A stretch of 35,654 nt of DNA, taken from positions 1-35,654 of the forward strand of contig JAQWQB010000028.1 of the NCBI GenBank assembly GCA_029245065.1. Direction: 5' to 3'. Origin of the DNA: Flavobacteriales bacterium. Lineage in GTDB: Bacteria; Bacteroidota; Bacteroidia; Flavobacteriales_D; Sanyastnellaceae. How positions within the stretch are numbered: position 1 is the stretch's first letter; each line of letters begins with the position of its first letter. A program made the position numbers and the translations under genes. Below are positions 21,709-30,588 of this stretch, one piece after another. The notes under the pieces were generated by a model. The model ran no database searches and had not been told where the DNA came from. It worked only from the letters and a program-made list of their open reading frames with translations.

Positions 21709-22158
21709 TCAATCATTGGGCATGTGAACAACTTCAATTCCTGCTTGGCTCAGAAACTCTAAGCCGCTGATGTCTTTGTAAGCTGTCATATAAACTACAC
21801 GTTTGATTCCTGCCTGCAAAATTAGCTTTGAGCATTCTTTGCACGGAGAGAGTGTAATGTACAAAGTAGATCCTTCTGAGCTGTTATTGGAACGTGCAAC
21901 TTTTGTTATCGCGTTCGCTTCAGCATGGAGCACGTACCACTGGGTATCGCCTTGTTCATCTTCGCATGAATTTGGAAAACCAGAAGGTGTGCCATTGTAA
22001 CCATCAGAAATGATCATCCCTTGTTTTACAATCAAAGCGCCAACTTGTTTACGAGAGCAGTGTGAGAGCTTTGCCCATTCAGTTGCCATCTTTAAATAAG
22101 CCTGGTCATACCTCCGCTGTTTCTTCGGATTGTGATAAGTAATTTCGTCTTTCTCCAT
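21709..22158 (-). CDS. Deoxycytidylate (dCMP) deaminase family protein
   Basis: 149 residues from ATG 22158. A longer frame to 22251 is rejected because a TAAATTTG box lies between (22168-22175), the extra 31 residues do not look like the family, and MEKDEI is a normal start. Zinc site: HAE (H78, E80) and PCKEC (C106, C109). CSRKQVGALIV and GYNGTPSG are typical of the ComEB/dCMP deaminase group. It makes dUMP for thymidylate synthesis. It is followed at once by the S41 protease gene and diverges from the cyclase gene. Confidence 0.9.
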   Translation of the reverse strand: MEKDEITYHNPKKQRRYDQAYLKMATEWAKLSHCSRKQVGALIVKQGMIISDGYNGTPSGFPNSCEDEQGDTQWYVLHAEANAITKVARSNNSSEGSTLYITLSPCKECSKLILQAGIKRVVYMTAYKDISGLEFLSQAGIEVVHMPND

Positions 22159-22233: not shown

Positions 22234-25212
22234 ATGCATCGATTCACACACATACTCCCGGGAATTTGCTTGGTTCTTTTCGCAACGCTCTTCGATTCAG
22301 CGCATGCCCAATCGTTTGACTTCTTGTGTTTAGGACAAGGTGACGGTTTGCCGGCAGATGGGGTCTTCGACTTGATCGAAGAAGAAAATGGCGCTTTGCT
22401 TATTGCTACGGAAGGCGGTGGTTTAGCGCGCTACAATGGCGAGCAACTAACCCACTGGGATCATACTAGTGTGCTCGGAGCTGACACCATTCGCTGCCTC
22501 ACAAGAGGAGCTGAAGGTGTTACCTGGATTGGAACAGATGGGCATGGGCTGTTCCACTTTCACAATGACACCTTCACAGCCGTTGCACCCCAGCTAGCGA
22601 ACGCCGAAATACGCTCATTGGCAGAAGACGCAACTGGTAGACTTTGGATTGCGACCATGCATGAAGGATTGTTTTCACTTGACCAAGATTCATTGACCAA
22701 ACATGAATTTCCTGCGGATACCTTCCGAGCGTTGCTGGTTTCTTCTGATAGTTCGCTTTACGTGGGAAGTGACGAAGGGCTTTTTAAGCAACATGGCGAA
22801 GAATTCGAACTGCTTGAAGCAAGTTTCACCGAAGCACTCTCTTCGAAAATATTGACGCTATTTGAAGACAATCAAGGTAGAATTTGGGCCGGAACACAGC
22901 AAGGCGCCGTAGGCCTCAAGGGCGACTCAGCATCCGTCATTCCGCCGGAGATTGCTCGAAAAAGAATTAAAACCATCAGCCAAGATCAGCAGGGAAACCT
23001 ATGGTTTGGTACACGAAGTGGTGCGTATGAATGGGATGAAGCAAAAGAGCTTTTTACCAGGTACACCAGTAGCAACGGGCTGTCGAACGACCGAATTCGA
23101 AAGTTGTATGCGGATCGGTCAGGGACATTGTGGTTCGGAACCTATTTCGGCGGGGTTTGTCAACTACAAGATCAATTGAACGCACGGTACTCTCGAGACC
23201 ACGGTTTTCCAGAATCAGCTATCACTTCGATGGCTATCACTCCTGATAGTTCATTGTGGTTTGGAACGTATGAAGGCGACGTATTTTCCCTTTCTTTTCA
23301 AGGTGAATTGAGACAAGTCCATGCATCCAATGACGAAGATGTGAATGCCATTGTTGCTGCCGGAGATTCGCTGCTCGTATTTACATCAGGCCAAGGCCTA
23401 TCGCTCATCGTAGATCCATCAGCAAAGGAGCTTCAGCCGCAGTTGGGGATGGAATACCGGTACATTGCCACGGATCACATCATTTTCCGTGAGACCCCGT
23501 ATTTGTTGAGTTCTAATGTACTTTTTCAAATCAATCAAGAATTATCAAGTGACGATTTCGCTTGCGAAACATTAACCGACTTTGAAATTGTAGACAGTAC
23601 GCTATACGTAGGCAGTTCCTGTGGTCTATTCACGCTTTCCATTGACAATAAGGGCAAATGGATATTGCCTACCAACAGGATGGATTTTAAGCCCGTAAAA
23701 GGATCGGAATTGCTGGAAATAGCTAGTATCAAAGCAGATGATGCTGGTAACATTTGGATAGGCAGTTCTAAAAATGGACTGTATAGGTACGATGGTAGCG
23801 TTCGAAAATATGCCAATCGCAACTTGGCTGACCCAAGAATTATTGACATTGACATTGATAACGATCAGAATATTTGGGTCGCCACTCGGAGCGGGGTTTC
23901 TTTTCTAGAATTGGACCCTTCGCAGGAAATTGTGTTAAACTCTACTCACTTCGGCGTTGCAGAAGGCATTGATTCGCAAATCAATCACATTAAGTGCGGC
24001 GTTGACCATCAAATTTGGTTGGGTTCCTCGAACGGATTGATTTCTTTGAATCCCGATGGCGCTTTTCATAACAATGCATCGCCTGCCCTCAGTTTAGATG
24101 GACTTCGCCTGAACTACAACCCCATCGACTGGGAGGCTTTAGGGTACCAAGTATCTTCCCTACCCACCAATCCCGTTTTCGAACATAATCAGAACCACTT
24201 GACATTTGACTTCCACGCTATTGATCTCTCTGGCCCACGAAGTGTTATTTATCAGTGTCTTCTAGAAGGGTTCGATATTGAGTGGGTTGACTTAAACAAC
24301 GTCACCACACATACTTATCCTCAATTACCACCCGGTGAGTACAGGTTTTCAGTTCGGTCTCGAAACTCCTCTGGAATTTGGAATACCACCCCAATGAGTT
24401 ATGCTTTCAGCATTAGTCGGCCTATCTATCAGGAGCCCTGGTTCCTTACGACATGTGCACTGGCTCTTATACTTCTGGTTTATTCTTTCTTTCAATACCG
24501 ATTGAGCAGGCTGAAAAAGGCGAAAGTTGTGCTGGAACAAAAAGTTCAAGAACGCACGGTAGAATTAAACGAAGAGAAAGAAAAAAGCGAACGTTTATTG
24601 CTAAATATATTGCCCAAAGAAACCGCTGATGAACTGAAGGAGAAAGGGTACGCTGACACCAGAAACTATGACAATGCTTCCGTGTTATTCTCAGATTTCA
24701 AAGGGTTCACCAACCTGACTGAACAGATGAATTCAGACGATTTGGTACGGATGCTCGACAGCGCGTTTAAGGCGTTTGACCGAAACTGTGATCGATTTGG
24801 GGTGGAGAAAATAAAAACGATTGGTGATGCGTACATGTGCGCCACTGGGATTCCGAATGAAGACCACGATCACGCTACTAAGATGGTTAGTTTTGCACGC
24901 GAAATGATTGCGGTTATGAATGAGCTCAACAAAGACAACTTGGCAAATGGCCTTCCGGCGTGGGATATTCGAATAGGTATCCACAGTGGACCGCTCATTG
25001 CGGGAGTTGTAGGAGAGAAAAAGTTCGCCTACGATATTTGGGGTGACACGGTCAATCTTGCCTCTCGAATGGAGAGTAGCGGAGAAGCAGGACGAATTAA
25101 TTTGAGTGAGAGTACTTATGAACTTATCAAGCAGGCTCATAAGTGCACACCGCGTGGAAAAATCCAAGCAAAGAACAAAGGGGAGCTAGAAATGTATTTC
25201 CTAGAAGAATAA
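22234..25212 (+). CDS. Propeller/Y_Y_Y sensor fused to class III adenylyl cyclase
   Basis: 992 residues. Signal peptide about 1-25. Residues about 30-640 are two-component-regulator propeller repeats (LWFGT, IWAGTQQG, LWIATMHEGL, IWIGSSKNGLYRYDG and more), probably a pair of seven-bladed beta-propellers. A Y_Y_Y domain follows (about 655-727, LPPGEYRFSVRSRNSSGIW), then a membrane helix (about 736-755) and a coiled coil (to about 790). An LLLNILPKETADELKEKG linker leads into the cyclase domain. Metal ligands are D821 (FSDFKGFT) and D865 (IGDAYM). K861 and D934 occupy the adenine-selecting positions; N941 and R945 are the transition-state pair. All key residues are present, so an active ATP-using cyclase is predicted. 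In Bacteroidota this sensor usually ends in a histidine kinase and regulator. The ligand is unknown. A cobalamin adenosyltransferase gene follows by 7 nt. Confidence 0.92.
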   Translation: MHRFTHILPGICLVLFATLFDSAHAQSFDFLCLGQGDGLPADGVFDLIEEENGALLIATEGGGLARYNGEQLTHWDHTSVLGADTIRCLTRGAEGVTWIGTDGHGLFHFHNDTFTAVAPQLANAEIRSLAEDATGRLWIATMHEGLFSLDQDSLTKHEFPADTFRALLVSSDSSLYVGSDEGLFKQHGEEFELLEASFTEALSSKILTLFEDNQGRIWAGTQQGAVGLKGDSASVIPPEIARKRIKTISQDQQGNLWFGTRSGAYEWDEAKELFTRYTSSNGLSNDRIRKLYADRSGTLWFGTYFGGVCQLQDQLNARYSRDHGFPESAITSMAITPDSSLWFGTYEGDVFSLSFQGELRQVHASNDEDVNAIVAAGDSLLVFTSGQGLSLIVDPSAKELQPQLGMEYRYIATDHIIFRETPYLLSSNVLFQINQELSSDDFACETLTDFEIVDSTLYVGSSCGLFTLSIDNKGKWILPTNRMDFKPVKGSELLEIASIKADDAGNIWIGSSKNGLYRYDGSVRKYANRNLADPRIIDIDIDNDQNIWVATRSGVSFLELDPSQEIVLNSTHFGVAEGIDSQINHIKCGVDHQIWLGSSNGLISLNPDGAFHNNASPALSLDGLRLNYNPIDWEALGYQVSSLPTNPVFEHNQNHLTFDFHAIDLSGPRSVIYQCLLEGFDIEWVDLNNVTTHTYPQLPPGEYRFSVRSRNSSGIWNTTPMSYAFSISRPIYQEPWFLTTCALALILLVYSFFQYRLSRLKKAKVVLEQKVQERTVELNEEKEKSERLLLNILPKETADELKEKGYADTRNYDNASVLFSDFKGFTNLTEQMNSDDLVRMLDSAFKAFDRNCDRFGVEKIKTIGDAYMCATGIPNEDHDHATKMVSFAREMIAVMNELNKDNLANGLPAWDIRIGIHSGPLIAGVVGEKKFAYDIWGDTVNLASRMESSGEAGRINLSESTYELIKQAHKCTPRGKIQAKNKGELEMYFLEE

Positions 25213-25219
25213 GATAACT

Positions 25220-25768
25220 ATGAAGGTATACACCAAAACAGGCGATAGCGGTCAAACGGGTATTTTGGGTGGCACAAGGCTTCAAAAAGACCACATACGG
25301 ATTGAGGCTTACGGCACCGTTGATGAATTGAACGCCCACATCGGCCTGCTTCGGGACTCTCCTGGAGCAACCGATTATAACGATACGCTCGTAATGATTC
25401 AAGAAGATCTTTTCACCCTTGGAAGTCATCTTGCAAGTGATCCCGAAAAGAATAAAATGGAATTGCCTGAGCTCGACGAATCACGCATCACTGATTTGGA
25501 GAAAATGATGGATGAGATGGATGGGCTATTACCTGCCATGAAGAACTTTGTGCTCCCAGGCGGCCATGTAGCTGTTAGCCAGAGCCATGTAGTGCGCTGT
25601 ATATGCCGAAGAGCGGAACGGGCAACCATTCGCCTACAATCTTCGTCGTACGTTAAAGGACACCATATTAAGTACTTAAACAGACTTTCTGACTTTTTCT
25701 TTGTGTTGTCTAGAAAGCTAGCCCAGGATTTAGGGGCAATTGAGACACCATGGAAGCCAAGAGGGTGA
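25220..25768 (+). CDS. Cob(I)alamin adenosyltransferase, PduO type
   Basis: 182 residues. Makes adenosylcobalamin from ATP and reduced cobalamin. The N-terminal ATP loop TKTGDSGQTGILGGTRLQKDHIRIEAYGTVDELNA is diagnostic (KTGDxGxT, GG.R..K, GT.DELN). VRCICRRAERATIRL and LNRLSDFFFVLSRKLA give the two helix motifs with Arg and the NRLSD base. It supplies coenzyme for B12 enzymes such as methylmalonyl-CoA mutase, in line with mce at 7058. It lies 7 nt behind the cyclase gene and is probably in its transcript. Confidence 0.94.
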   Translation: MKVYTKTGDSGQTGILGGTRLQKDHIRIEAYGTVDELNAHIGLLRDSPGATDYNDTLVMIQEDLFTLGSHLASDPEKNKMELPELDESRITDLEKMMDEMDGLLPAMKNFVLPGGHVAVSQSHVVRCICRRAERATIRLQSSSYVKGHHIKYLNRLSDFFFVLSRKLAQDLGAIETPWKPRG

Positions 25769-28174: not shown

Positions 28175-28735
28175 ATGAACATGTTCGATATTATTTGTTT
28201 GATAGTTTTGGGATTCGCCGGATGGAAGGGTTTCCAAAAAGGGTTCATCATTGAAATCTTTGGAATACTTGCCTTGTTTGCTGGTATTTATGGCGGAATT
28301 CATTTCTCTGACGGTGTTGCAAACTGGTTGCGAAAAAGCATCGACATCAAGGAAGAATGGCTCCCAGCGGCATCTTTCACAATCACTTTTATCGGAGTAT
28401 TGGTAGGTATTCACTTCTTAGCGAAAGCGGTAACGAAGCTGTTGAATATTGCTCAGTTGAGCATCTTCAATAAAATAGCTGGAGCGCTTTTTGGATTGCT
28501 CAAAGCAGCCATGATTTTGAGCATTGTTCTTATGCTGATTCATCCGTTGAACGAACAGGTGAACTTTCTATCGGACGAAGTAAAAGAAGAGTCGCTCTTG
28601 TATCAACCTATTCACGATTTCTCTTCTACCATTGTGCCTGCAGTGAAAGACAGCGACTTTTACCACTACTTGCAGAAAGAAGGCTGGGTCCCGAGGGAAC
28701 TTCCATTTAACCTAGATGAAGTTATTTCGAATTAG
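28175..28735 (+). CDS. cvpA: CvpA family membrane protein
   Basis: 186 residues with four membrane helices (about 4-20, 26-46, 65-85, 105-128). The start MFDIICLIVLGFAGWKGFQKGFIIEIFGILALFAGIYGG and the G-x-L-FGLLKAAM segment before the last helix match the CvpA/colicin V production family. It is an inner-membrane protein of unclear role. In relatives it is linked to envelope stress and biofilm; here no purF neighbour is seen. The C-terminal 60 residues are soluble. The stop codon overlaps the convergent hybrid kinase by 4 bp. Confidence 0.88.
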   Translation: MNMFDIICLIVLGFAGWKGFQKGFIIEIFGILALFAGIYGGIHFSDGVANWLRKSIDIKEEWLPAASFTITFIGVLVGIHFLAKAVTKLLNIAQLSIFNKIAGALFGLLKAAMILSIVLMLIHPLNEQVNFLSDEVKEESLLYQPIHDFSSTIVPAVKDSDFYHYLQKEGWVPRELPFNLDEVISN

Positions 28736-30588
28736 GATAGATGTCGTTCAACGACCAATTTGAGTGACGAAGGCGAATAGGGTTTCAACACAACTCCAGA
28801 CATCCCGGCGTCTTTGCACCGTTGATTCACTTCTCCCATTACAGATGCCGTCACGGCGATAATTGGAATATGTTGGTTGGCGCCTTCCGTTTCACGAATC
28901 TTCCGCGCAGCAGTATACCCATCCATAAGGGGCATTTGAATGTCCATCAAGATGAGATCATATTCTTCTTCTCCGGCACGCTCTACTACTTCTAATCCAT
29001 TTTCAGCGATGGTCACTTCTGCTCCCCAACTGGTAACGAATTTCTCTAATAGAAGTTGGTTTATTTTGTTGTCTTCAGCAGCCAAAATTCGCTTTTTGTG
29101 AAGCACGTTTTGTACAATATGTACTTCCTCAACAATTGGCTCTGGGTTCACTTCATCTGGTAATTCAAAAGTAATGGTGAACCCAAATTCACTCCCTTCA
29201 CCTGGCACACTTACCACTTCTAGGTCTGCCCCGTGCAGTTCAACAAGTTTCTTGGTAATGGCCAAGCCTAGCCCTGTTCCACCAAATTTTCTTGTTGTAC
29301 TAGAACTCGCTTGTGTAAACAGACTGAAGACCGATTTCAGTTTACTCTCTGGAATCCCAATCCCGCTGTCTTTTGCGCTAAAATGAATGGTTGCGAGTCC
29401 ATCATTCACTTCAATAACCTTTGTCTTCAAAAGTATTTCTCCGTGAAAGGTAAACTTAATGGAGTTTGAAATGAGGTTATTAAAAATCTGAGTCAAACGG
29501 TGCGCATCTCCTAAAACACTGGCCGGAGTGGCCTCATCCAGCTGAAAGTTTAGGCTTAGTCGCTTGGCATTTGCTTGAAAAATAAAAGTATCTCGGATCT
29601 GTAGCAGAAGCGAGTTAATGTCTACATGCGACGATTCCAATCGAACCCGTCCGGCATCCATTTTCGAAAAGTCGAGGATATCGTTGATCAGGCCGAGCAA
29701 GCCTTTTGCACTAAACAGAAGAGAATTAAGGTTTTCTACTTGCTCTTCTTTCGGGTCTTCTGCTTTTAATAAATGGGCTAGACCTATAACTGCATTGAGT
29801 GGCGTTCTGAGCTCGTGGCTCATGGTACTTAAAAACTGTTGTTTCGCTCTTGAACCTGCTTCAGCTCGTTGGGCCTCCATTTTCAATTGACGTTCGATTT
29901 CTTTGATACTTGAGATATCACGTATCACACCATCGAAACTCTTTGAACCATCTTCATGCGTAGTCAACACCGCACTAATCATTCCCCAGAAAATACTACC
30001 ATCTCGTCGCTTCAGAAGAAGCTCTCTGTTGGTGACCACTCCCTCTCCCACCAGTTCATCTCTGAATTCAATTCGCTGTTCTGGATTGGCATAAAAAGTC
30101 CCTGAATTTTTGGTTCTCATGGTTATCGCATCCTCAAAACCGAACATACGAACCATGGCATCATTCACGTAGAACAGCTCTCCCTCTTCACTTGTGCGGT
30201 AAAATCCTTCTTGCAAATTCTTGTTGATAGAAGAAAGGATATCTACTACTTCAGATTTCGCTGAATTGATTCCCATTCGTTCCCAGAGCAAGGTTGCTCC
30301 TGGTTCTCCCGAGGGCAATGTGCATGGCACCAAGGAAACCTTAAGTGGAATGTTCTCTTGATCAATGCGCACTATCCAATGGAGGGTTTGCAACTTTTGC
30401 TCATTTATCGAATCTTCAATCAGCGGACCGTAATTCTTTGTTTCGACGAAATGGAATATGGAATTAGGCACGGGTGAGTTCTCCCCCAACAATGAAGCAA
30501 AAGCCCCGCTATAGGCCACAATCTCCCCATTCGCTCGGATAGAGCAAATCGGTAAACCACTAGCTATGGAATCGTCTACCCTATGCAT
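28732..30588 (-). CDS. PAS-containing hybrid histidine kinase
   Basis: 618 residues, no membrane helix, so cytoplasmic. Two N-terminal PAS-like domains (about 8-105 and 118-232; the second ends DGVIRDISSIKEIE, a PAS-PAC end). HisKA has H258 in STMSHELRTPLNAV. The ATPase domain shows the N-box (about 368-378), DSGIGIP (407-413) and GGTGLGLA (436-443). A receiver domain (about 498-618) has the acidic start AAEDN, phospho-acceptor D549 (LMDIQMP) and K-P at the end (VLKPYSP). There is no HPt domain, so phosphate must pass to a separate HPt, for which the 33530 gene is a candidate. It starts one nt after the phosphohexomutase stop. Confidence 0.93.
   Translation of the reverse strand: MHRVDDSIASGLPICSIRANGEIVAYSGAFASLLGENSPVPNSIFHFVETKNYGPLIEDSINEQKLQTLHWIVRIDQENIPLKVSLVPCTLPSGEPGATLLWERMGINSAKSEVVDILSSINKNLQEGFYRTSEEGELFYVNDAMVRMFGFEDAITMRTKNSGTFYANPEQRIEFRDELVGEGVVTNRELLLKRRDGSIFWGMISAVLTTHEDGSKSFDGVIRDISSIKEIERQLKMEAQRAEAGSRAKQQFLSTMSHELRTPLNAVIGLAHLLKAEDPKEEQVENLNSLLFSAKGLLGLINDILDFSKMDAGRVRLESSHVDINSLLLQIRDTFIFQANAKRLSLNFQLDEATPASVLGDAHRLTQIFNNLISNSIKFTFHGEILLKTKVIEVNDGLATIHFSAKDSGIGIPESKLKSVFSLFTQASSSTTRKFGGTGLGLAITKKLVELHGADLEVVSVPGEGSEFGFTITFELPDEVNPEPIVEEVHIVQNVLHKKRILAAEDNKINQLLLEKFVTSWGAEVTIAENGLEVVERAGEEEYDLILMDIQMPLMDGYTAARKIRETEGANQHIPIIAVTASVMGEVNQRCKDAGMSGVVLKPYSPSSLKLVVERHLS

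Follow-up and report, generated by a model that had tools for sequence, protein, structure and literature searches.

A beta-propeller/Y_Y_Y protein of a Flavobacteriales bacterium as a probable one-protein receptor adenylyl cyclase

Can the extracellular sensor of a hybrid two-component system be coupled, within a single polypeptide, to the synthesis of cAMP? The question is raised by a gene for a 992-residue protein in the window, i.e., the whole stretch of 35,654 nucleotides of contig JAQWQB010000028.1 analyzed here, which comes from a Flavobacteriales bacterium. The features of the locus are listed in Table 1. Pfam assigns Reg_prop (7.6e-39), Y_Y_Y (2.3e-10) and Guanylate_cyc (3.9e-57, residues 810-991) to this protein, the last with a score of 193.3 bits against a curated cut-off of 21.9, and the hydropathy profile reveals an N-terminal signal-like stretch and one more hydrophobic segment at about residues 731-757. 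HisKA, HATPase, receiver and HTH output domains are not detected in the protein by Pfam or NCBIfam. A sequence-only reading of this DNA had proposed propellers and a Y_Y_Y domain joined to a cyclase in place of a histidine kinase; this architecture holds, with domain matches far beyond chance. The protein resembles the HTCS proteins at the input only and does not belong among them.

Table 1. Features of the cyclase locus, with positions in the window.
Feature	Position	Strand	Basis or remark
Predicted propeller/Y_Y_Y receptor adenylyl cyclase	22234..25212	+	992 aa, ATG start
Predicted signal peptide, residues 1-25 (...AHA|Q)	22234..22308	+	Hydrophobic peak at residues 4-25; model helix 2-18
Two beta-propellers, residues 27-610	22312..24063	+	Reg_prop; strand pattern; alignment to 4a2l, 3v9f, 3va6
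Y_Y_Y domain, residues about 611-731	24064..24426	+	Pfam 666-719; model beta strands 618-727
Single transmembrane helix, residues about 732-757	24427..24504	+	Hydropathy; onset of continuous helix 735-792
Coiled coil and cyclase-transducer-like motif (LLLNILPKETADELKEKG), residues 758-809	24505..24660	+	Ortholog identity; helices 735-792, 795-804
Class III adenylyl cyclase catalytic domain (adenylyl type by residues)	24661..25206	+	PF00211, 198 bits; catalytic residues
Cob(I)alamin adenosyltransferase	25220..25768	+	Cob_adeno_trans 5e-57; 7 nt after the cyclase; probable same transcript
dCMP/cytidine deaminase-type gene, divergent	21709..22158	-	Likely start 22158, 75 bp to the cyclase ATG; conserved neighbor

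An AlphaFold2 model was built on a 29-sequence alignment, with a mean pLDDT of 82.7 and a pTM of 0.61, a value at which the mutual placement of the domains is unreliable. The strands of the propellers extend from approximately residue 30 to 605 and are followed by a beta sandwich (Y_Y_Y) up to approximately residue 727; an unbroken helix (735-792) then starts at the membrane and continues as the coiled coil, and a short helix (795-804) leads into the cyclase fold. The structure prediction suggested earlier as a check thus recovers the propellers, the Y_Y_Y domain and the cyclase fold alike. The top-ranked ectodomain matches in Foldseek and VIA-align are the hybrid sensors BT4663, BT4673 and BT3049, in agreement with the earlier description of the extracellular half as a hybrid two-component sensor chassis, and 678 residues are aligned with BT4663 (4a2l) at a Z of 37.1 and an rmsd of 5.4. 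The cyclase domain matches 5o5k and 4p2f (TMt 0.84-0.90), and the C-terminus also matches 5oyh, the ATP-converted domain of a rhodopsin-guanylyl cyclase. Between the two halves, the EKSERLLLNILPKETADELKEKG segment immediately N-terminal of the cyclase is strongly conserved, and the conserved helix 735-792/795-804 bears the motif LLLNILP. By resemblance, the EKSERLLLNILPKETADELKEKG segment is a putative cyclase transducer element (CTE), a concept described previously (PMC5995499).

We consider it probable, at roughly 0.8, that the protein is a single-pass, inner-membrane, ligand-gated receptor adenylyl cyclase in one polypeptide. This reading builds on what is observed: the order of the domains, the topology features, the residues for catalysis and ATP selection, the phylum-wide conservation and the fold match. 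From these we infer gating by a ligand, dimerization, the use of ATP over GTP and a downstream effector. The periplasmic propeller/Y_Y_Y part would bind a putative ligand, and the resulting movement would be passed through the transmembrane helix and the coiled coil to the transducer motif, which may bring the paired cyclase domains of a homodimer into alignment and thereby switch on the synthesis of cAMP from ATP. In six orthologs, the two propellers average 36% and 31% identity to those of the window protein and the Y_Y_Y domain 46%, against 62% in the coiled coil plus transducer and 67% in the cyclase; a receptor fits this pattern because the input diverges rapidly and the output stays constant. 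The low conservation of the ectodomain can also be read otherwise, namely that the cyclase is active without gating by a small ligand, and that the ectodomain serves for docking or for surface sensing, like the propeller protein PorZ of type IX secretion, so that through it the cyclase reports the state of the envelope or of a partner protein. The ligand of the ectodomain is itself only putative, and matches to PorZ are found both in NCBIfam (weak, 66 bits versus a cut-off of 260) and in Foldseek (5m11). However, the match to the hybrid sensor ectodomains, Y_Y_Y included, is far stronger, which makes the docking role rather unlikely.

The receptor cyclase gene occurs in 9 of the 114 genomes of the family, its own included, and its surroundings are the same in all nine carriers: genes for an S41 protease and the deaminase (divergent), the cyclase, the adenosyltransferase and a convergent aspartate kinase. 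In seven relatives, the cyclase and adenosyltransferase genes share 4 bp, and in G470 the overlap is 26 bp. Co-transcription is likely because of the 7-nt gap in the window and these overlaps, and the shared transcript proposed earlier is borne out to this extent, the two genes being adjacent in every carrier. The unbroken order (9/9 carriers, with overlaps in eight) would suit a functional link, with B12 metabolism under the control of the receptor or of the cAMP that it makes. We regard such control as unlikely, however: 58 of 60 relatives have the adenosyltransferase, most of them without a cyclase of the window type, and its gene is not a neighbor of the paralog group described below and the other propeller-cyclases examined. 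Moreover, in G027, G016 and G018 (loci L152, L155 and L158), approximately 76-122 bp separate the adenosyltransferase from the same deaminase, and no cyclase intervenes. The link need not be functional, since these cyclase-less relatives keep the adenosyltransferase beside the same neighbor, and, although conserved, it is probably positional. In the simplest reading, the divergent deaminase-adenosyltransferase pair is the older arrangement, and the cyclase either entered it or was lost from it. The loci L152, L155 and L158 represent natural "empty sites" of the cyclase. Elsewhere in the window (28732-30588, minus strand), a PAS-HisKA-HATPase-receiver hybrid kinase is encoded near phosphoglucomutase-type and RmlD-type genes.

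The catalytic residues bear directly on the product of the putative receptor. In an alignment of 29 proteins, the residue numbers given in the earlier note prove exact. None of the 29 aligned homologs has a substitution in the metal-binding Asp pair, D821 and D865, or in the adenine-selecting pair, K861 and D934; the transition-state residues N941 and R945 are both present in the window protein and are retained in 24/29 and 28/29 homologs, respectively. Among class III cyclases, the Lys/Asp pair is the ATP-selecting, adenylyl type. Judged by its sequence, the residue set is that of a complete adenylyl-type class III (IIIa-type) cyclase. Although guanylyl cyclases are near the window domain in sequence, the invariance of the ATP-selecting pair makes it very improbable that the enzyme yields cGMP or both nucleotides.

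The fusion is not restricted to this locus. The same genome encodes a second propeller-cyclase (G000:C12, L098:3116-6397, minus strand; open frame of 1119 aa), in which Pfam finds Reg_prop, Y_Y_Y and Guanylate_cyc, and which is 52% identical to the window protein over the Y_Y_Y-to-cyclase part. The group of this paralog (L098, L109, L110 and L117) lies next to two conserved proteins predicted to be secreted, which are without a Pfam match save for a weak EF-hand/dockerin-like end and are possibly the sensing partner or target of the paralog. Related fusions are present in other families of the order and across the phylum, with counts that are lower bounds because at most four candidates were scored per genome in the phylum survey. 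All 29 Bacteroidota proteins picked for the alignment contain Reg_prop, Y_Y_Y and Guanylate_cyc, and the occurrence in other Flavobacteriales that had been guessed from the sequence is therefore found, and is wider than supposed. With such a phylum-wide recurrence, the propeller-cyclase is not a one-off. The matches in a locus search of genome contigs with the single protein were mostly cyclases of Alphaproteobacteria and propeller proteins of different types, none of them close.

That the window fusion is an assembly chimera or a decaying pseudogene is scarcely conceivable: the window does come from a 143-contig draft, and one ortholog (G015) has an in-frame TAG, but the catalytic residues are retained and the same fusion occurs at the same locus, with intact frames, in independent genomes at 38-47% overall identity, which rules out a chimera. 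In the G015 ortholog (L105:2862-5852), the TAG separates a 716-aa propeller/Y_Y_Y frame from a 263-aa membrane-plus-cyclase frame; the split may reflect decay, a sequencing error or a split receptor.

In trees of the cyclase domain, the propeller-cyclases form three main clusters and one outlier among cyclases with other N-termini. The best tree requires 4 changes for the propeller group, within which the truncated propeller-cyclases L066 and L068 were counted, and constraining this group to be single gives a p-AU of 0.099. A single fusion and several fusions are indistinguishable, since the grouped tree is not rejected. Other class III cyclases with varied N-terminal parts are plentiful in Bacteroidota (L058-L063, L086-L097 and L181-L183), in frames of about 600-700 aa, receiver-like frames of 350-405 aa and frames of 1700 aa. 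The class III cyclases of the phylum far outnumber what was seen in a 2005 census, in which the four Bacteroidetes genomes known at the time were without any adenylate cyclase (PMC1183210). As that census found none, there is no established cAMP circuit for the receptor to plug into.

The absence of any cAMP-responsive protein from the genome had been named as an argument against the cyclase. The genome instead encodes four proteins with a predicted cNMP-binding (CNB) domain, one of which has a near-canonical pocket. Three of the four are CRP/FNR-like with pockets that, judged by eye, are degenerate. The fourth (L003:1396-2286, G000:C6; 296 aa) is a fusion of cNMP_binding to SLFN_AlbA_2 in Pfam, and its gene is flanked by DEAD-box-type helicase and flavoprotein genes. 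The FGEMAALTDFERLGTV stretch of this CNB-AlbA_2 protein aligns with the phosphate-binding cassettes found in cGMP- and cAMP-dependent kinases; the G-E and R of the pocket are invariant in 7/7 homologs, and the Arg is followed by Leu, where Ser/Thr is usual. The full-length protein is present in seven of the nine cyclase carriers and in none of the 105 other genomes of the family (Fisher 9e-10). This co-occurrence was rejected as strong evidence: in the adenosyltransferase tree, all nine carriers group together as a single clade (99/99), within which those seven that have CNB-AlbA_2 form a nested clade (96/88). Because the carriers are nested in this way, the co-occurrence amounts to one or two evolutionary events and serves only as a lead. 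The CNB-AlbA_2 protein is, tentatively, the best candidate in the same genome for an effector of the cyclase. It is a speculative and rather doubtful proposal that the clade runs an undescribed cAMP pathway, in which propeller cyclases would sense an external ligand and the target of cAMP would be this CNB/AlbA_2 (Schlafen-type) fusion, itself acting on nucleic acid, instead of a CRP regulator.

If the receptor reading is correct, propeller sensors, best known for glycan sensing via histidine kinases, would also drive a class III cyclase phylum-wide. The receptor cyclase would offer an entry to the role of cAMP in Bacteroidota, where we found no established circuit, and its modular form suggests that the ectodomain could be swapped with a characterized HTCS sensor of known ligand. 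The propeller receptor cyclase appears to be a real and apparently undescribed kind of receptor. A literature search that covered few subscription journals, and is thus weak evidence of absence, turned up no description of a class III cyclase with propellers and Y_Y_Y, and the combination of Reg_prop, Y_Y_Y and cyclase is presumably already listed in protein databases.

Several known systems share features with the protein. BT4663 (PDB 4a2l/4a2m), BT3049 and BT4673 of Bacteroides thetaiotaomicron share the order and fold of two propellers plus Y_Y_Y; BT4663 is a heparin-sensing hybrid kinase, and sensors of this type differ in their output from the window protein, where the output is a class III cyclase. 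Over the structural match, the cyclase domain is 39-40% identical to those of mycobacterial Cya (5o5k) and Rv1625c (4p2f), in which a helix likewise runs from the membrane to the cyclase. The membrane anchors of Cya and Rv1625c consist of six helices, whereas the window protein combines a single transmembrane helix with a large propeller ectodomain. The receptor guanylyl cyclases (GC-A; 9bcs and 9bcv) are similar in that they are single-pass, one-protein receptors with a coiled-coil linker and an alignable cyclase domain. However, GC-A has a different ectodomain, contains a pseudokinase domain and produces cGMP. In GdpX2 and GdpX3 of Xanthomonas oryzae, the output attached to Reg_prop and Y_Y_Y is a GGDEF domain (PMC6637768); a sensor module of this kind is thus placed on a nucleotide-messenger enzyme with no kinase, as in the window protein, but the enzyme and its messenger (c-di-GMP) are different. 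Sensor swapping is common in cyclases, with 746 Pfam architectures by 2016 (PMC4886424).
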